DNA of 64,000 nt from Olleya sp. YS. Its GTDB lineage: Bacteria; Bacteroidota; Bacteroidia; Flavobacteriales; Flavobacteriaceae. The DNA lies in contig NZ_CP121685.1 in assembly GCF_029760915.1 (NCBI RefSeq), forward strand, positions 2,443,001-2,507,000, given 5' to 3'. The translations under genes were made by a program, and so were the position numbers. Positions 42,137-50,267 of this stretch are shown piece by piece; position 1 is the first letter of the stretch, and each line of letters starts with the position of its first letter. Below the pieces are notes generated by a model, which saw only the letters and a list, made by a program, of their open reading frames with translations, had not been told where the DNA came from and made no database searches.

Positions 42137-42197
42137 GTAATCGTATATTTTAAAGTGAAATTACAAAATTAATTGAGTATTTTTGAAATCGTTAAAA

Positions 42198-43232
42198 ATG
42201 AAAGCAACTTACCACAAACATATTTTAGAATTTAAAAGACCTAGCGGAACCTCTAGAGGTGTTTTAAAAACAAAAGAAACTTGGTTTATTACTATTGAGA
42301 ATAATGGAAAACGTGGCATAGGCGAATGTGGTATCCTGAGAGGGTTGAGCATCGATGATAGGCCAGATTACGAGAATCAGCTAAAAAAAACTTGCGATAG
42401 TATAAATATGGGATTTGATTGGCTTTATATATTCAATATAAAGTTTCCGAGTATACAAATAGGACTAGAAATGGCTTTTAAAAGTTTTGAAAGCGATAAC
42501 CAATTCATTTTATTCCCATCAAAATTTACAAAAGGAAAAGCTGCAATACCAATTAATGGATTAATCTGGATGGGAGATAAGGCTTTTATGAAACAACAAA
42601 TTAAAGACAAGATATCATCTGGGTTTAATTGTATAAAATTGAAAATTGGAGCTTTAGATTTTCAAACTGAATTAGATATTTTAAAGGGAATCAGGCAAAA
42701 TTTCAGCGAAAGCGATATAGAATTACGCGTCGATGCCAATGGTGCTTTTAAGCCAGAAGACGCTTTAGAAAAATTAAAACGATTGTCAGATTATCAACTG
42801 CACTCCATAGAACAGCCAATTAAAGCAGGACAATTTCAAGAAATGGCTAAACTTTGTGAGCTAACACCTTTACCAATTGCTTTGGATGAAGAGCTAATAG
42901 GTGTTTTTACTCAGCAGAAAAAAGAAGCTTTATTAAAAGGGATTAAACCACAATACATTATATTAAAACCTAGTTTTATAGGTGGATTTAAAGGAAGTAA
43001 TGCATGGATTAATTTAGCTAAAAAACAGAATATTGGTTGGTGGATTACTAGTGCTTTAGAAAGTAATATTGGGCTTAATGCAATTGCACAATACACTTAC
43101 TTAAAACAAAGTAAATTGCCTCAAGGACTAGGTACTGGTAGCTTGTTTACAAATAATATTAAGTCACCATTACAAGTAAAAAATGGTACATTGCAATACA
43201 ATACTAATACTAATTGGGAATTTAATTTTTAG
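42198..43232 (+). CDS. menC: o-succinylbenzoate synthase
   Basis: 344 residues, enolase superfamily (mandelate-racemase/muconate-lactonizing group). ATG at 42198 is preferred to an in-frame TTG at 42183. Motifs: catalytic Lys pair in IKLKIG, metal ligands in ELRVDANGAF, SIEQPI and IALDEEL, and the second Lys in YIILKPSF. Dehydrates SHCHC to o-succinylbenzoate. Dipeptide epimerases have a similar fold, but the position three genes from menE and close to menB/menA favours MenC. Three bases to the next gene. Confidence 0.93.
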   Translation: MKATYHKHILEFKRPSGTSRGVLKTKETWFITIENNGKRGIGECGILRGLSIDDRPDYENQLKKTCDSINMGFDWLYIFNIKFPSIQIGLEMAFKSFESDNQFILFPSKFTKGKAAIPINGLIWMGDKAFMKQQIKDKISSGFNCIKLKIGALDFQTELDILKGIRQNFSESDIELRVDANGAFKPEDALEKLKRLSDYQLHSIEQPIKAGQFQEMAKLCELTPLPIALDEELIGVFTQQKKEALLKGIKPQYIILKPSFIGGFKGSNAWINLAKKQNIGWWITSALESNIGLNAIAQYTYLKQSKLPQGLGTGSLFTNNIKSPLQVKNGTLQYNTNTNWEFNF

Positions 43233-43235
43233 ATT

Positions 43236-44192
43236 ATGAATTTTATAAAACAAGCGTTTTATGTTAAACACGAATTTTGGCGCTATCTAGTAGGCTCACT
43301 AATAATTGCGGTTTTTGCCATTATTGGTCAATTTCCGTTTGCTATTGCTGCAATGGTAAAATATGTTCGTGAAGGCGGATCTATAGCTACTATGGAAGAA
43401 CAAGATTTGATGACCGTTTTAGAACCAAATTTAAACTTGTTTTTAATGTTGCTGTCTTTTGCTATTGGCTTTATAGGGTTGATTATAGTAGTTAAATACT
43501 TGCATAACCAAACTATGAGGTCTGTAACTACTGCTAGACCAAAAATAGATTGGAACCGTATTTTATTTGCATTTGTATTTTGGGGAATTGTATCCTCTAG
43601 TATGATATTGATAGATTATTTTGCTAATCCAGAAGACTATGTTTTAAATTTTAAGCTCAATCGCTTTTTAATTTTAGCCTTAATTGCAGTGTTACTAATC
43701 CCAATACAAACCAGTTTAGAAGAATATATTTTTAGAGGCTATTTGATGCAAGGGTTTGGTGTGCTTGCTAAAAACAGATGGTTTCCACTAATCATGACGT
43801 CTGTAATCTTTGGTGGATTACACGTATTTAATCCAGAAGTTGGTAAACTAGGTTATGGTGTAATGGTGTATTACATTGGTACAGGATTGTTTTTAGGTAT
43901 TATTACGCTTATGGACGAAGGTACAGAACTAGCGTTAGGGTTTCATGCTGCTAACAATTTATTTGGAGCCTTATTAGTATCTGCAGATTGGACGGTATTG
44001 CAAACACACTCTGTTTTAAAAGATATCTCTGAGCCAGGACAAGGATTTGGAGATATCGTAATTCCAGTGTTCATTGTATTTCCAATCTTATTATTCATTT
44101 TTGCAAAAAAATATAATTGGTCCAATTGGAAAGATAAATTGTTTGGTGATATAGAAGAACCCATAGTAGAAGATTTAGAAGCAATAGATTAA
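43236..44192 (+). CDS. CPBP family intramembrane protease (CAAX-like)
   Basis: 318 residues with about seven or eight transmembrane helices. The CPBP/Abi motifs are visible: EEYIFRG (paired Glu and Arg), FGGLHVFNPE (motif His) and FHAANNLFG (second His). These are intramembrane metal-dependent or glutamate-type proteases; the substrate is unknown. Here it is inserted between menC and menE with spacers of 3 and 2 bases, so it is translated together with menaquinone genes, though no direct link to the pathway is known. Confidence 0.9.
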   Translation: MNFIKQAFYVKHEFWRYLVGSLIIAVFAIIGQFPFAIAAMVKYVREGGSIATMEEQDLMTVLEPNLNLFLMLLSFAIGFIGLIIVVKYLHNQTMRSVTTARPKIDWNRILFAFVFWGIVSSSMILIDYFANPEDYVLNFKLNRFLILALIAVLLIPIQTSLEEYIFRGYLMQGFGVLAKNRWFPLIMTSVIFGGLHVFNPEVGKLGYGVMVYYIGTGLFLGIITLMDEGTELALGFHAANNLFGALLVSADWTVLQTHSVLKDISEPGQGFGDIVIPVFIVFPILLFIFAKKYNWSNWKDKLFGDIEEPIVEDLEAID

Positions 44193-44194
44193 CA

Positions 44195-45274
44195 ATGACG
44201 CCAACTTTTGATAAAGTCCACAACAGATTTAAGTTAAATGGAAACTATTTTTCTTTTGAAGATTTAAAAGAAGTAGCTTATAGTTTAGTTAAAGAAGGAG
44301 AACCTTTTGAGAAAGACTTAGGTAACTTTTTACTAGATTGGTTGGATGACAAAGACTCTATTTTAGTCAAAACCTCAGGATCTACAGGTCAGCCTAAAAC
44401 CATAGCTTTAAGTAAACAAGCAATGGTAAATTCTGCAATTGCTACTGGCGATTTTTTTAAATTACAACCAGGTGATTCTGCGTTGTTATGTTTGCCCGCA
44501 ACCTACATAGCTGGAAAAATGATGCTAGTTCGTGCAATAGTACTAGGTTTAGAAATTGATAATGTAAAGCCTACAACCAATCCGATTTTTGATCCTGAAA
44601 AGCAGTATGATTTTTGTGCAATGATTCCTGCACAAGTTGAAAAAACATTACACAGAATTAATAATATAAAAATCCTTATTGTAGGAGGTGCTCCAGTATC
44701 TTATCAATTAAAAGTCAAGCTTCAAGATTTAAAAACTAAAGTTTTTGAAACCTATGGTATGACAGAAACCATTACACATATTGCTGTCAAACCATTAAAT
44801 GCTTCTACTGTCTCCTCGAGCGCAGTCGAGAGGTCACACTTCCAAACCCTACCAAATATTACTATCTCACAAAATAAAAATGACTGTTTGGTTATTGAAG
44901 CACCACAATTAACAGCCTTTAAAATCGAAACTAATGATATTGTCAAGCTTCATTCCAAAACCAGTTTCCAGTGGTTGGGACGACTAGATAACGTTATCAA
45001 TTCTGGAGGAGTCAAGTTGTTTCCGGAGCAAATAGAGGCAAAGCTTCAATCAACAATTAATTCGCGATTTTTTATTTCTTCAGAAAAAGATAACACCTTC
45101 GGGGAAGTTGCTATTTTAGTTATTGAAGCAGAAGGTAATACACTAAAACCAAACGTGTTTTCTAAGCTAACAGCTATAGAAACCCCTAAAAACGTGTATG
45201 CTATATCTCCATTTTCAGAAACATCTTCAGGAAAAATAGACAGAAATAAAACATTAGCACGACTTAAAAAGTAG
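44195..45274 (+). CDS. menE: o-succinylbenzoate-CoA ligase, short form
   Basis: 359 residues, ANL adenylate-forming family: ATP loop 'VKTSGSTGQPKTIALS', 'FETYGMTETITHIAVK', 'FQWLGRLDNVINSGGVKLFPEQIE' and the C-terminal Lys in 'SSGKIDRNKT'. Activates o-succinylbenzoate with CoA. It is shorter than the 450-490 residues of enterobacterial MenE because the N-terminal part is reduced, as in other Bacteroidota. Between the TYGMTET motif and the next core segment it carries an in-frame palindromic repeat (44807-44838), giving an Ala/Ser/Val-rich insert with no expected counterpart. Confidence 0.9.
   Translation: MTPTFDKVHNRFKLNGNYFSFEDLKEVAYSLVKEGEPFEKDLGNFLLDWLDDKDSILVKTSGSTGQPKTIALSKQAMVNSAIATGDFFKLQPGDSALLCLPATYIAGKMMLVRAIVLGLEIDNVKPTTNPIFDPEKQYDFCAMIPAQVEKTLHRINNIKILIVGGAPVSYQLKVKLQDLKTKVFETYGMTETITHIAVKPLNASTVSSSAVERSHFQTLPNITISQNKNDCLVIEAPQLTAFKIETNDIVKLHSKTSFQWLGRLDNVINSGGVKLFPEQIEAKLQSTINSRFFISSEKDNTFGEVAILVIEAEGNTLKPNVFSKLTAIETPKNVYAISPFSETSSGKIDRNKTLARLKK
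44807..44838 (+). repeat. palindromic repeat element inside menE
   Basis: CTCGA (44815-44819), loop GCGCAG centred on 44822, TCGAG (44826-44830), flanked by short imperfect complements (GTCT/GGTCAC). It is more GC-rich than its surroundings and read in frame as STVSSSAVERSH. Its reverse complement holds CTCGACTGCGCTCGAG, which I recall as a core of dispersed intergenic repeats in flavobacteria. Confidence 0.6.
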
Positions 45275-45367
45275 AGTTTACTCATTCAAAAGTCTACTTC
45301 ACTCAATATCAGTTTTATAATCTTTTATTTGGTTATAGGTTTGTTTTAAACTTTAAAACTAGCCATT

Positions 45368-48300
45368 ATGAAACTTTTTAGATTATTCTTTTTCTTGATT
45401 TCAATTAACCTTATTGCACAAGAAGTACCAAGAATTAAATTGCAAGATTCCACATTTTTAGCATTAAAAGAATTAGACGTTAAAACAGAGGTTGTTGGTA
45501 ATATTGCAACAACCACATATACTATGAAGTTTTTTAATGGAACAGATCGCGTATTGGAAGGCGAACTTGCTTTTCCGTTAGGACAAGGTCAATCTGTTAC
45601 TAATTTTGCAATGGATGTTAATGGTAAAATGCGAGATGCTGTTATCGTAGAAAAAGAGCTAGGTCGAGTGGCTTACGAGTCTACAATACGTCAAACCATA
45701 GATCCAGGATTATTAGAAATTACAAAAGGTAATAATTATAAGGCTAGAGTATATCCAATTCCTGCTAATGATTATAAATTATTAAGCATAACTTTTGAGC
45801 AAGAAATGAATGCTAGCGATGGGAAACACGTCTATGAAATTCCGTTTAACTTTTCAGACCCACTAGATTTCAACTTAGATATTTTAGTATATAATACTAA
45901 TCAGCAACCGGAAATTAAAAATAAGAATCCGTACAAATTAAAGTTTAAAAATAGTGACGGTGTTTTAAAGGCATCAGTAAATAAAAAAAATACTAAAGTC
46001 GACACATCGGTAGTTTTAGAGTTTCTAGTTGGTAATTCTGAAAGTGTAACCACCTACAACAACTATTTTAATGTGTATAAGTTATTTACTCCAAAAACAA
46101 GAATTAAGGAAAAGCCTAGTGACATCACTATATATTGGGATGCATCATACTCTATGAAGTTCAGAAATTTGGATGCAGAATTAAAACTTTTAGAATTGTA
46201 TTTTGAATATTTAGATAATGTTAATGTCAATTTTGTAACCTTTAGTAACAAAATGTCTAAGTCTAAACAATTCAATATTAAAAATGGACATTGGAAAGCG
46301 CTTAAAAAGGATATTGAGTCAATAGTTTATGATGGAGGAACGTCTTATTTAGAATTAAAAAACGACACAAATAACGAAATCCTATTTTTTAGTGATGGTA
46401 TGTTTAATTTAGGACAATTACAAGATACATTTAGAGGGCGATTATATGCTATTAACTCAGTTAAATCAGCTAATCATCAGTTTTTAGAATACACATCAAA
46501 TCAAAATAATGGAAAATACATCAATTTAAATTTTACTAATCATGATCAGGCTTTACATGCATTAAAAACTGAAGCGTTTAAATTTTTAGGTATTAAAGAT
46601 AACGACCTAATATCTGAGGTTTTCCCTTTGCCAAATACAACTATTACTAGTGATTTTTCAGTTTCAGGACAGTTTGAAAAAAACACAGATATACAATTAA
46701 ATTTTGGATATGGAAATCAAGTCACAGAAAGTATTAAGATTACTTTAGAACAATCAAGTTTTAATAGCTTGGTTAAACGTTTGTGGGCAAAGAAAAAGCT
46801 TCAAGTATTAAATAATGATAAGGAGGTCAATAAAGATGAAATCATTAAACTTGCCAAAAAAAATCATCTTATTTCAGAGTTTACCTCACTAATCATTTTA
46901 GATAGGATTGAAGATTACGTGCGTTATAAAATAGAACCACCTGCAGAATTAAAAGCAGAATACAAACAACGTTTAGCAAATAGGGCATATGAAGACGAAG
47001 AGAGGTTTGAAAACATTCAAGATAGAAAAAATCAGCTTGTAGAAGATTATCAAGAATTAATAAAGTGGTATAACACTGTTTACCCAATAGTAACAGTTAT
47101 TAGCGAACCAAAAAAAATAAACGATACTACAGTAACTGTAACAGAAACTAAAACTTGGGTTGTAGATACTTTACCAGAAATAACACCAACAGTTGCTCCA
47201 AATCTACCAACAGTTGCTCCAAGTCCACCAATAGTGAATACTCCAAAATCACAAACAAATTTAGATACTAACAAACGAATTGTATCTGGAGTCATTTCTG
47301 ATGAAAACGGATTGCCACTTCCTGGTGCATATGTATTAATCAAAGGTACATCAAATGGTACTTCTACAGATTTTGACGGAAACTTTAGTATTAATGCTGA
47401 AGTAGGAGATGTTATTGAAGTAGGTTATATTGGGTATGGAACCAAAATAATAACTATTGGTGGCTCAAATAATATTAATTTTTCTCTAGAACCAGACAAC
47501 AGTTTAGACGAAGTGGTAATTGTTGGTTACGGTACAACAACTACAAAAGCCTTTACAGGTGTAGCATCTACTGTTATTGCAGAAAATATTGAAGTAAAAT
47601 CATTTACTAACGTAACTCAAGCATTAGCGGGTGAGGTTGCAGGTGTATCAGTTATTAATACTTCTGGACAACCAGGTTCTGTTAATACTGTACGTGTAAG
47701 AGGATATGGTTCCCCAATTGGTAATACCTCTCCTTTATATATTGTTGATGGAGTTCCAGTTAATGAATCAGAATTTAAAACTATAGCAACCGATGATATA
47801 AACAATATGACTATATTAAAAGATGCTTCCGCCACTTCTCTCTTTGGTAGTAGAGCTGCAAACGGAGTAATTGTTATCACTACTAAAGAAGGTTTAAATA
47901 CTAATGCTGAGCAAATTCAAGAATTAGATAAAAAAATTAGAGAAGATATAAACTTTAAACCATGGTCGCCAGACAGCGATTACATTAAAATACTATTGGC
48001 ACAGTCGACTATAAAAGATGCTTATAATAAATATTTAGAACTTAGAATTAAATATAGAAATACGCCATCTTTTTTTATAGATGTCGCAGAGTTTTTCGAT
48101 TCTAAAAAGGATAAATCACTAGCTATTAAAGTGTTATCTAATTTAGCTGAAATAGATTTAGATAATCACGAAGTAATGCGAGCATTAGCTTATAAATTAG
48201 AATATTTTAAGCAATATGATTTAGCATTACACGTGTACAAAGAAGTATTAAAACTAAGACCAGAAGAACCACAATCTACTAGAGATTTAGCTTTGGCTTA

Positions 48301-48865
48301 TGAAAACTTAGGTGACTACCAAAAGGCTTTTGATTTGCTTTATTCGATAGTTGAAGGACAATTAGTTGAAAAAGATTTAGATAAGCGTTTTTATGGCATC
48401 GAGCATCTAGCTTTTGTAGAAGCTGGACATCTATTGAATAAATATAGTAAAAGTTTAAATCTTACAGATGCCCAAAGACAACTCATTAAACCAATAGAAG
48501 TCGATTTACGTGTCGTTGCAGACTGGAATCATAATGATACAGATTTAGATTTGTGGGTAGACACTCCAGAAGAATATGCTATTAGCTATAAAAACAAAAG
48601 ATCAGATTATGGAGATAGATTATCTGAAGACATGACTGAAGGGTATGGTCCAGAAGAGTTTATGATTAAAAAAGGACTAAAAGGTGACTACAATATTGAA
48701 GTCGATTATTTTGCTGACGAAGTCCAAAAAATATCAGGACCTACAACTTTAAAAATCACCATTTTTAAAAATTATGGTAGTAAAAACGAAACTAAAGAGG
48801 TGAGGATTTACAGATTAGACATTGAGAAAGATTTATTAGAAATAGGATCAATAAATTTTAAATAA
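45368..48865 (+). CDS. VIT/VWA protein with embedded SusC N-terminal (CTD-plug) module, TPRs and DUF2135
   Basis: 1165 residues, one open frame. Signal peptide (about 1-18); VIT domain (about 20-160); VWA-like domain from about 250 with the MIDAS-like DASYS; a Pro/Thr linker (about 605-630); a carboxypeptidase-D-like regulatory domain (about 637-705, SGVISDENGLPLPGAYV); a TonB-receptor plug of SusC type (about 710-841) with VVIVGYGT, VRVRGYG, YIVDGVP and ITTKEG; TPR-like helices (about 880-1010); and a C-terminal DUF2135-like domain (about 1030-1165, WNHNDTDLDLWVD). The roughly 800-residue barrel that follows the plug in SusC is absent. VIT/VWA/TPR/DUF2135 is a known surface-protein layout; the inserted SusC module is the odd part. 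Likely periplasmic or surface exposed; function unknown. Confidence 0.85.
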   Translation: MKLFRLFFFLISINLIAQEVPRIKLQDSTFLALKELDVKTEVVGNIATTTYTMKFFNGTDRVLEGELAFPLGQGQSVTNFAMDVNGKMRDAVIVEKELGRVAYESTIRQTIDPGLLEITKGNNYKARVYPIPANDYKLLSITFEQEMNASDGKHVYEIPFNFSDPLDFNLDILVYNTNQQPEIKNKNPYKLKFKNSDGVLKASVNKKNTKVDTSVVLEFLVGNSESVTTYNNYFNVYKLFTPKTRIKEKPSDITIYWDASYSMKFRNLDAELKLLELYFEYLDNVNVNFVTFSNKMSKSKQFNIKNGHWKALKKDIESIVYDGGTSYLELKNDTNNEILFFSDGMFNLGQLQDTFRGRLYAINSVKSANHQFLEYTSNQNNGKYINLNFTNHDQALHALKTEAFKFLGIKDNDLISEVFPLPNTTITSDFSVSGQFEKNTDIQLNFGYGNQVTESIKITLEQSSFNSLVKRLWAKKKLQVLNNDKEVNKDEIIKLAKKNHLISEFTSLIILDRIEDYVRYKIEPPAELKAEYKQRLANRAYEDEERFENIQDRKNQLVEDYQELIKWYNTVYPIVTVISEPKKINDTTVTVTETKTWVVDTLPEITPTVAPNLPTVAPSPPIVNTPKSQTNLDTNKRIVSGVISDENGLPLPGAYVLIKGTSNGTSTDFDGNFSINAEVGDVIEVGYIGYGTKIITIGGSNNINFSLEPDNSLDEVVIVGYGTTTTKAFTGVASTVIAENIEVKSFTNVTQALAGEVAGVSVINTSGQPGSVNTVRVRGYGSPIGNTSPLYIVDGVPVNESEFKTIATDDINNMTILKDASATSLFGSRAANGVIVITTKEGLNTNAEQIQELDKKIREDINFKPWSPDSDYIKILLAQSTIKDAYNKYLELRIKYRNTPSFFIDVAEFFDSKKDKSLAIKVLSNLAEIDLDNHEVMRALAYKLEYFKQYDLALHVYKEVLKLRPEEPQSTRDLALAYENLGDYQKAFDLLYSIVEGQLVEKDLDKRFYGIEHLAFVEAGHLLNKYSKSLNLTDAQRQLIKPIEVDLRVVADWNHNDTDLDLWVDTPEEYAISYKNKRSDYGDRLSEDMTEGYGPEEFMIKKGLKGDYNIEVDYFADEVQKISGPTTLKITIFKNYGSKNETKEVRIYRLDIEKDLLEIGSINFK

Positions 48866-48898
48866 CAAGTTTTTGGTTGTTTACTAGTTATTTAAAAT

Positions 48899-48933
48899 TA
48901 AAAAGGAACGTTTTATAACGTTCCTTTTTTTCC
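48899..48933. terminator. bidirectional terminator after the VIT/VWA chimera
   Basis: AAAAGGAACGTT / AACGTTCCTTTT around a TTAT loop (arms near 48901-48912 and 48917-48928) with T-runs on both strands. Serves the convergent OmpA gene too. Confidence 0.88.
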
Positions 48934-48947
48934 CTTTTAAATGTAAT

Positions 48948-50195
48948 TTAGATTTTTAAAAATTCTACTCGTCTGTTATTAGCTTTCTCTTCTGGATTAC
49001 TATTGGTGTTTAGTGGTTCACTTTCTCCTTTACCTAACGTGGATAACCGTGTTTCATTTATTCCTAGATTAATTAGTGCTTGTTTTACTGCTTCTGCACG
49101 TTGTTGCGAAAGACTTAAATTACTTTCTGTGGTCCCATCACTATCTGTATGACCAATAATTTGAAAACTCCAATCTGGATTCTCAGTCATTACTTCTGCT
49201 ATTTTATTGATAACACCCATTGATTGTGGTTGCATGTCTGCTTTACCAGAATCAAATAATATACCATTGGTAACATATTTTCCTTCAGAAGAAATGCGTT
49301 TGTACATTTGTCCTCCTCCATGTGCAATACGTATATTTTTTATTGGAGCATTAAGTTTTTGTTTATTATTAGAGTACCCTCTAAACTGAATAGCTACAAC
49401 ATCAGGCACTACATAAAATTTTGGTAAATTGGATATACGCTTTTCATCATAATACAATTTAAATTTTCCTTTATTGTAAGACATTGCTATATGATGCCAA
49501 GCATTCATTTTTCCTAGAGACACCTTTTCTAATGCAAAGCTACTATTAGAGGCATGTCCAGTAGTATTTTTACCATTGCTAAGCATTAATCTAACATCAT
49601 TGCTAGAAGAATATTTTAACTTTTTTGAGTCAAATATGATTTCTATTTCTGTCCAAAAGTTACTGGCATCAGCACTTTCGACATAAACATCAAATTCAAT
49701 AGTAAATTCATCTCCTAAATAGTTTGGATTATTAAATAAAGGTGTAATCCTGTTATTATATTCTGCTGTACCTATTATTACTTTTTCACCATTAAATCGT
49801 GCAATTTCTGCACCACCTTTAACCAAATCCCATCGTGAAGGAAACTCGCCAACTTCTTCATATCTTAAATCATCATAAAAAATAACTTTTTCGCCAGGAA
49901 TAAATTTGTAATTACGCCAAATCTCAGGAGTTTTTTGCTCTGAGGAATTATGATTTGGCGATTCTTTTTTATTTTCAGGTTCAGGAGCGTCTTCTTTTCT
50001 TTGTTGTTCCTCTTCTTGTTCTTCAGGTATTTTTTCGTCTTTTTTTTCTTCTAATATATCATCGATTTTTTCATCAGCTTTTTGCTCAATCTTTCTTTCA
50101 GCTTTTTTTTGAATTTTTTTCCAAATTTGAGCTTCGACAGATTGAAATGAAAAAACTAAAAAGCAAATCGATAAAATTGTAGTTAAGTATTTCAT
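48948..50195 (-). CDS. OmpA family protein with LamG-like middle domain
   Basis: 415 residues from ATG 50195 (an upstream in-frame start at 50228 is less likely). Signal peptide (MKYLTTILSICFLVFSFQSVEA), a Lys/Glu-rich coiled stretch (about 25-100), a concanavalin/LamG-like sandwich (about 110-300, with 'FTIEFDVYVES' and 'AWHHIAMSYNKGKFKLYYDEKRI') and a C-terminal OmpA peptidoglycan-binding domain (about 305-415) with IIGHTDSDGTTESNLSLSQQRAEAV and NNRRVEF. It should bind the cell wall from the outer membrane and may bind carbohydrate through the sandwich domain. No beta-barrel precedes the OmpA domain. Confidence 0.87.
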   Translation of the reverse strand: MKYLTTILSICFLVFSFQSVEAQIWKKIQKKAERKIEQKADEKIDDILEEKKDEKIPEEQEEEQQRKEDAPEPENKKESPNHNSSEQKTPEIWRNYKFIPGEKVIFYDDLRYEEVGEFPSRWDLVKGGAEIARFNGEKVIIGTAEYNNRITPLFNNPNYLGDEFTIEFDVYVESADASNFWTEIEIIFDSKKLKYSSSNDVRLMLSNGKNTTGHASNSSFALEKVSLGKMNAWHHIAMSYNKGKFKLYYDEKRISNLPKFYVVPDVVAIQFRGYSNNKQKLNAPIKNIRIAHGGGQMYKRISSEGKYVTNGILFDSGKADMQPQSMGVINKIAEVMTENPDWSFQIIGHTDSDGTTESNLSLSQQRAEAVKQALINLGINETRLSTLGKGESEPLNTNSNPEEKANNRRVEFLKI

Positions 50196-50267
50196 TTTTA
50201 ACGGATTAATTGTATCTCTAAAATACAAAAAAACGTTTTAAAATTGTTTCAATACCTAAATAAAAGT

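Follow-up and report, generated by a model that had tools for sequence, protein, structure and literature searches.

What would a protein without a beta barrel do with the N-terminal module of a SusC-type TonB receptor? The question is raised by one gene in a 64,000-nucleotide stretch of the Olleya sp. YS genome (Flavobacteriaceae; NCBI RefSeq assembly GCF_029760915.1, contig NZ_CP121685.1, positions 2,443,001 to 2,507,000 of the forward strand), referred to here as the window. The encoded protein has a VIT/VWA half and a TPR/DUF2135 half and, between them, the N-terminal extension (NTE), Ton box and plug of a SusC. The place between the halves is a variable slot, and a link to the TonB energy system is suggested because relatives keep a Ton box there or carry a TonB C-terminal domain instead. 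The answer that we put forward tentatively, as a little short of an even chance, is that the slot is a docking site for the Ton system on a barrel-less protein. The parts of the gene are as follows, with residues numbered in the window protein and locus labels (L021 and so on) used below where loci must be told apart.

45368-48865, forward strand: whole gene, a barrel-less VIT/VWA - NTE/Ton box/plug - TPR - DUF2135 protein (frame, Pfam, model)
45368-45421, forward strand: putative signal peptide without a lipobox cysteine, residues 1-18 (by eye; modelled helix at 2-16)
45464-45796, forward strand: VIT domain, residues 33-143 (Pfam PF08487, E 1.9e-22)
46115-46597, forward strand: VWA domain, residues about 250-410, limits by eye (MIDAS-like motifs, weak PF13519, fold match)
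47078-47275, forward strand: disordered, fast-changing linker before the slot, residues 571-636 (pLDDT below 50 at 576-630; alignment)
47282-47500, forward strand: NTE (PF13715), residues 639-711 (Pfam, TIGR04056, fold match)
47504-47521, forward strand: Ton box LDEVVI, residues 713-718 (within the stretch 712-733 of pLDDT below 50; box conservation)
47438-47737, forward strand: SusC-derived tract, residues about 691-790, limits by eye and chosen post hoc (identity, tree conflict)
47555-47893, forward strand: plug domain, residues 730-842 (PF07715, E 9.1e-17; fold match)
47978-48484, forward strand: TPR-like helices, residues about 871-1039 (weak TPR models; modelled helices)
48500-48862, forward strand: C-terminal beta domain with DUF2135, residues 1045-1165 (PF09906, E 3.7e-11; modelled strands)

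An earlier note on this DNA had described a continuous reading frame in which residues of about 637-841 match the regulatory and plug domains of SusC-type receptors, including the motifs VVIVGYGT, YIVDGVP and ITTKEG, and in which TPR-like helices and a DUF2135-like domain follow in place of a barrel. The sequence bears this description out. The frame is single and stop-free over 1165 residues, and the three motifs are present, the first at 716-723. Pfam places CarbopepD_reg_2 at 639-718 (E 7.5e-16), Plug at 730-834 (E 9.1e-17) and DUF2135 at 1104-1150 (E 3.7e-11), with weak TPR matches at about 935-995. The NCBIfam SusC model TIGR04056 matches residues 639-845 with positions 3-209 of its 981 (E 2.2e-76); the score of 258 bits lies under the cut-off of 368, so that the protein does not pass as a full-length SusC. 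Matches to solved SusC/RagA chains are likewise confined to 639-845 or parts of it (best E 1.2e-39). NTE, Ton box and plug stand in the order of SusC, and neither TIGR04056 nor the predicted structure gives a beta barrel after residue 845. The VWA domain is weak by Pfam (PF13519, E 0.035) and contains DASYS (258-262), GGT (323-325) and SDG, which we take to be MIDAS-like motifs; D258, S260, S262 and G323 are invariant in a 74-row family alignment, and the DxSxS MIDAS pattern of VIT/VWA proteins is present. Judged from its sequence, the protein would be exported and is probably periplasmic.

The earlier note had also proposed a structure prediction and a search for the same domain order in other genomes. 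The AlphaFold2 model, built from 74 family members, has a mean pLDDT of 80.9. The NTE is folded and is the best-modelled part of the insert, residues 712-733 (holding the Ton box) fall below pLDDT 50, and confidence in the plug is low in its N-terminal half and fair in its C-terminal half; beyond the plug come helices and then a beta domain. In Foldseek the NTE superposes on that of SusCdex (9hfj; TMt 0.90, rmsd 0.9), and the plug stretch matches SusC/RagA chains over 110-130 columns at 38-45% identity. The top match of the whole model is inter-alpha-inhibitor heavy chain 1 (6fpy; E 2.4e-23, 571 columns), which suggests that the first half has the VIT-plus-VWA fold of inter-alpha-trypsin-inhibitor heavy chains; identity is only 12-13%, and the window protein differs in being bacterial and in having the SusC module, TPR and DUF2135.

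In the family search, the VIT/VWA half was matched in 66 of 299 family genomes, in many of them solely through the VWA part of other proteins. The family sample consists of the best 80 (79 loci) of 98 confirmed contig stretches, which are mostly from Flavobacteriaceae with some from Carboxylicivirga and Labilibaculum, plus loci from the 299-genome search. Slot contents were classified with profiles made from four SusCs of the window genome and from eight members of the TonB-domain type. The counts exclude six loci whose frames are broken, cut or short (L044, L048, L049, L080, L090 and L092) as well as 8 duplicates, leaving 95 of 103 rows. As a separate observation, the VIT-family genes of L044, L090 and L092 are interrupted by a stop or frame break in their assemblies.

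The slot holds NTE and plug in 68 of the 95 rows, a TonB C-terminal domain in 10, the NTE only in 6 (so that 74 rows have an NTE), the plug only in 4, and neither in 7; without five pairs that are at least 95% alike, the corresponding counts are 63, 10, 6, 4 and 7 (n = 90). Two of the TonB domains exceed the curated Pfam TonB_C cut-off (L101, L102), one falls under it (L117), and the others were called by our own profile. The window genome itself gives 10 matches to PF03544, of which 9 exceed the cut-off. The family tree requires at least 12 changes of slot content. The recurrence of NTE and plug in most rows, together with the assembly of the window genome as one 3.0-Mb contig, rules out an assembly error as the source of the fusion.

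Proteins with the order VIT-VWA-TPR-DUF2135 also occur in Aureibacter, Deinococcus and Sphingomonas, and our profiles detect no NTE, plug or TonB domain in any of the three. Because such insert-free proteins exist, the SusC part was probably inserted and did not replace anything; insertion into a pre-existing VIT protein is the most likely history, in a family tree left unrooted with respect to the insert-free proteins. The suggestion in the earlier note that a barrel had been replaced therefore stands as to the absence of the barrel, and probably fails as to its history.

Within the slot, what is kept most strictly is the Ton box. Its mean entropy (residues 713-718) is 0.56 bits in the 68 rows with NTE and plug vs 0.59 in 29 SusCs, while the VIT rows are looser in the NTE body (1.71 vs 1.45) and in the N-terminal (2.26 vs 1.99), middle (2.11 vs 1.54) and C-terminal (1.76 vs 1.19) parts of the plug; the SusCs, from which four non-SusC loci had been removed, were picked by similarity to the window segment, which may lower their entropy. 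Plug positions near-fixed in SusC (P769, D810, D819, A820 and R829) are relaxed in the VIT rows; in 36 of the 68 the stretch from the NTE to the end of the plug falls short of that in the window protein by 10 residues or more, and 6 of the 74 NTE-bearing rows have no plug. A strict box is found in 62 of the 68 slots with NTE and plug (68 of 68 with a relaxed pattern), 5 of the 6 with NTE only, 2 of the 4 with plug only (where the box comes after the plug), 1 of the 7 with neither (L043) and 0 of the 10 with a TonB domain. Outside the slot, the VIT rows contain no strict box and four relaxed matches. In the window protein the box is both conserved and, lying in the low-pLDDT stretch, predicted to be exposed, as a TonB client would have it. 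By comparison with an excerpt of PMC7782687, LDEVVI corresponds to VDEVVV of Bt1763; the same excerpt reports that deletion of the Ton box cripples a SusC and gives the suggestion of its authors that the NTE may set TonB specificity.

Two sphingomonad VIT slots, from plasmids of Sphingomonas and Novosphingobium (L263 and L265), contain NIVVTGS and NIVVSGQR, which resemble ADIIVTGIRRS of a Ton receptor adjoining one of them and hence the sphingomonad Ton box; these are two cases only. Neither an NTE nor a plug was found in L263 (by profile) or in L265 (by eye only).

The window protein also carries the mark of copying from a transporter. Trees of the outer halves group it with L021, from the same genus, and L051, from Olleya (SH-aLRT 100), whereas the tree of the NTE-plug region places it among same-genus SusCs (starred sets 96 and 98), apart from both. 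Over residues 691-790, limits selected after inspection of the data, 83 of 100 positions are identical to the SusC L002 of its own genome vs 41 to L021 and 39 to L051 (Fisher p 1e-9); over the 140 flanking residues, 68 are identical to the SusC and 93 to L021. The Ton box and the first half of the plug thus stem from a SusC that is close to those encoded in the same genome. At the DNA level identity to L002 is 77% over 483 bases, so the copying is not recent, unless a relative of L002 served as donor. Starred branches also join other VIT inserts to SusCs, in Kordia to L174 and in L083 and L121 to L005, and related SusC N termini are abundant in these genomes.

The module is not confined to VIT proteins. 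The window genome has 27 plug matches, and in 24 of them the frame continues for at least 457 residues beyond the plug (barrel-sized, the barrels not being individually checked); the three that look unlike transporters are the window gene, an alpha-2-macroglobulin (L156) and an M56/BlaR1-type protein (L154). L156 is a 2195-residue protein with an NTE (1198-1277) and plug (1295-1382) between its A2M_BRD (968-1085) and A2M (1407-1494) domains. The same Pfam domains lie at 759-905 and 976-1057 in E. coli YfhM, and between them fall bait residues 923-942, described as lacking density in cleaved ECAM in an excerpt of PMC4498604. By domain order, the module of L156 would therefore occupy the bait position. 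A profile comparison with E. coli YfhM did not align the bait region, a profile search of the PDB gave matches only upstream of it, and a model of the bait fragment was uninformative (pLDDT 50).

We read 30 alpha-2-macroglobulin loci, those of the best matches among 80 genomes. By strong matches, their slots hold NTE and plug in 6, an NTE without a recognized plug in 6, a plug only in 1 (L245) and neither in 17; weak matches among the 17 include a partial plug in L244 and NTE ends in L255, L256 and L258. A strict Ton box is present in 20 of the 30. The 18 slots without a strong NTE were scored for three patterns written post hoc, when the slots had already been seen: the strict box occurs in 11 (shuffled mean 0.03), an ALSGRVAGV-like peptide in 11 (0.01) and an IRG-like peptide in 13 (0.58), with none of these patterns in the 21,193 residues outside those slots. 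All three peptides are present in 8 of the 18, where the box is last in every case and IRG is first in 5; in 3, one LRGRVAG-like peptide fits both of the other patterns. In SusC the order is box, VAGV, RG in all 20 of the 29 examined sequences that have the three. The NTE-less slots thus appear to have kept the peptides and lost both fold and order.

A third family is represented by YfbK-type VWA proteins. At nine loci (L070, L083, L085, L086, L091, L099, L107, L110 and L120), a YfbK-type gene lies within 6 kb of the VIT gene; its product has an NTE at the N terminus and, in some cases, a plug. In a set of 20 YfbK-type sequences (these nine, nine from 60 family genomes and two from plasmids), all have the NTE, and the box is strict in 14, in a near form by eye in 5 and lacking in 1.

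If the slot does serve for docking, it would couple the protein to the Ton system from its position between the VIT/VWA half and the TPR/DUF2135 half. In the window protein the NTE of the slot is folded, the Ton box is predicted to be exposed and the plug is weakly modelled; of these the box would do the work, with the plug as passenger or scaffold. The TonB C-terminal domain would bind the box of the slot as it binds that of a transporter, and the protein could be recruited to the Ton motor, or pulled by it, without any transport. Relatives with a TonB domain in the slot might dock on Ton boxes from the opposite side. Docking accounts for three things: the box persists longer than the plug, a TonB domain can stand in the same slot, and slots without an NTE still have a box. 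The boxes of the YfbK-type proteins and the box-like motifs of the two sphingomonad VIT proteins are in line with it. Architecture, box conservation, the TonB domain in the slot and the SusC-derived tract are observed; export, binding to TonB, transmission of force and the purpose of the protein are inferred.

Several observations weigh against docking. Repeated copying from SusC can renew the box without selection. The box-versus-TonB-domain contrast gives a Fisher p of 3e-7 over the 95 rows, but because the rows are related and only 4 pairs are independent (sign test not significant), it is not counted as significant. No Ton box was found in the Deinococcus VIT slot or, by eye, in E. coli YfbK. 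That TonB-domain and plug paralogues might form an obligate pair was considered and rejected: leaving out L106 and L120, both are present in 6 of the 10 TonB-domain genomes, and 4 have no NTE-plus-plug copy. Finally, we considered whether a Ton box is a general feature of NTE proteins, and this is partly true and weakens the case. In a control covering 30 of the 44 NTE matches of the window genome, with absence of a plug judged by Pfam, the seven plug-less NTE frames under 500 residues include two with a strict box (L306, L315), three with a near form (L312, L317, L319) and two with none (L311, L324), while the six longer ones, some of which may be receptors with divergent plugs, include four strict (L300, L305, L313, L327), one near (L320) and one without (L325). 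A box after an NTE is thus not by itself proof of TonB binding; the motif may be partly linked to the NTE, or it may mark further Ton clients. Because LDEVxI-like motifs stand behind many NTEs in these plug-less frames as well, most weight is put on the slots that have no NTE.

The alternative that survives best, which we nonetheless consider unlikely, is that the slot has no function: a permissive loop would receive pieces of SusC and TonB by recurrent recombination, and the pieces would then decay. The abundance of related SusC N termini and the derivation of the window tract from one of them fit this explanation, as do the grouping of other VIT inserts (Kordia, L083 and L121) with SusCs, the shortened or missing plugs, and the changed order of the pieces in the alpha-2-macroglobulins. 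Recombination without function accounts for scrambling and renewal, but leaves unexplained why the box in particular survives. Of all parts the Ton box is the least decayed, and the linker flanking the slot has no conserved motif by eye; the same element is found in three unrelated protein families, at one place in each; and the two sphingomonad VIT proteins have a motif resembling the Ton box of their own lineage, with neither NTE nor plug.

Similarly improbable, and if anything slightly more so, is a bait or integrated decoy, in which imitated Ton parts would draw proteases, bacteriocins or other attackers of Ton receptors or of TonB. An alpha-2-macroglobulin trap would be triggered by the strike, and copying from SusC would keep the imitation current. 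Integrated decoys of plant NLR receptors offer an analogy and no more, from a different kingdom: there, a defence protein incorporates domains of host targets. The placing of the L156 module in the interval of the E. coli bait region points this way, and so do the 18 NTE-less slots, where linear SusC peptides are retained in a new order and the fold is not; the window tract is SusC-derived, as a decoy would require, and the N-terminal half of the window protein is like an inter-alpha-inhibitor heavy chain. Compared with docking, a decoy gives the better account of the SusC-derived tract and of the scrambling of SusC peptides where the bait would lie. It has no known attacker, however; the TonB C-terminal domain is a folded domain and not a bait peptide; the slot of VIT proteins is not known to act as bait; and the bait position was mapped by domain order, while the profile comparison with the E. 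coli protein missed the region.

A further reading, which is very unlikely, gives the working role to the NTE as an Ig-like domain for docking between proteins, the box and plug being hangers-on. No other part of the insert is modelled as well as the NTE, and 74 of the 95 rows have it, but 18 of the 30 alpha-2-macroglobulin slots have no strong full match to it, 11 of these with a strict box, and three VIT proteins (L043, L128 and L045) have a box and no NTE. Least likely of all, and hardly credible to us, is the proposal of the earlier note that the plug binds a barrel in trans, so as to gate or block SusC-like barrels, for which one can cite the 38-45% identity to solved plugs and a partly conserved core, but against which stand the relaxed SusC-fixed columns, the shortening and loss of the plug beside a box that is kept, and the finding that, among the 18 NTE-less alpha-2-macroglobulins, a strong plug match is limited to L245, with a weak and partial match in L244. 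The general idea of the same note, an adaptor to the Ton system or a decoy of it, has gained support; it had missed the conserved Ton box, the TonB domain in the slot, the SusC-derived tract, and the parallels in alpha-2-macroglobulins and YfbK-type proteins.

Known systems resemble these proteins in part. Residues 639-845 reproduce the SusC/RagA N terminus (TIGR04056) in order, one part being closest to same-genus SusCs, but the segment begins at residue 639 and not at the N terminus, and no barrel follows. Flavobacterial alpha-2-macroglobulins carry NTE, Ton box and plug, or parts of them, at the presumptive bait position; they are otherwise unrelated to the window protein, and YfhM itself has no Plug or CarbopepD_reg_2 match at E 0.01. 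YfbK-like VWA folds tethered to the inner membrane have been proposed as periplasmic force transducers (PMC12204202, 2025). As excerpted, that paper shares with our set the VWA domain, and the Bacteroidota YfbK relatives have an N-terminal NTE and mostly a Ton box; the published proteins are tethered transducers, whereas ours resemble clients with a Ton box. PorE, in the same excerpts, is a non-transporter with an NTE-like domain for which the authors suggest a TolA/TonB-like force link; it differs in its CpoB-, TolB- and Pal-like domains, and a plug is not mentioned there. Plug, Ton-box and alpha-2-macroglobulin cases were not found in these excerpts (PMC12204202), nor did searches of an open-licence library give a description of the present arrangement.

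More broadly, and with more doubt than confidence, we suggest that a class of Ton clients lacking a barrel exists in Bacteroidota and possibly in sphingomonads. VIT/VWA proteins, YfbK-type VWA proteins and alpha-2-macroglobulins would each carry the Ton box at one fixed place, with or without NTE and plug; in a VIT sub-lineage the C-terminal domain of TonB would occupy this place. Protease-trap and adhesion-like proteins of the periplasm would be recruited or pulled by the proton-driven Ton motor, or would stand guard at the Ton gate, and copying from real transporters would renew the motif. In the usual account, TonB serves transporters of the outer membrane, along with the bacteriocins and phages that exploit these. 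If the suggestion is true, either the Ton motor has clients beyond import or trap proteins are built with imitated Ton parts, and it may open a way into three families that are still poorly understood, the VIT/VWA/DUF2135, YfbK and bacterial alpha-2-macroglobulin proteins. For annotation, a plug or NTE match alone does not make a transporter.

The neighbours of the window gene (42183-50228) are genes that we take to be menC-like and menE-like, a CPBP/Rce1-like protease and an OmpA protein (the last two by Pfam). The menE-, menC- and CPBP-like genes, which lie just upstream (42183-45274), recur near the VIT gene in 18-22 of 82 loci; this conserved neighbourhood is housekeeping and gives no functional clue.

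Some further genes combine the same parts. Three (L083:9434-11104, L099:7480-9132 and L110:5605-7257) have NTE, plug and the TPR/DUF2135 half without the VIT/VWA half, and sit just downstream of a VIT gene (by Pfam for L099). Just upstream of another VIT gene, L050:5935-7383 encodes a protein of about 482 residues that combines NTE, Ton box and VWA domain. The M56/BlaR1-type peptidase L154 of the window genome (region of G000:C1:1908808-1908993) ends in the C-terminal half of a plug (24.7 bits with the Pfam Plug model, whose cut-off is 23.9); an M56-plus-plug gene is found by Pfam in the flank of L106, and a similar-looking gene at L109 has a plug match by profile only. Two more frames of the window genome, L193 (616 residues) and L194 (744 residues), match the TonB C-terminal domain and are perhaps further fusions.

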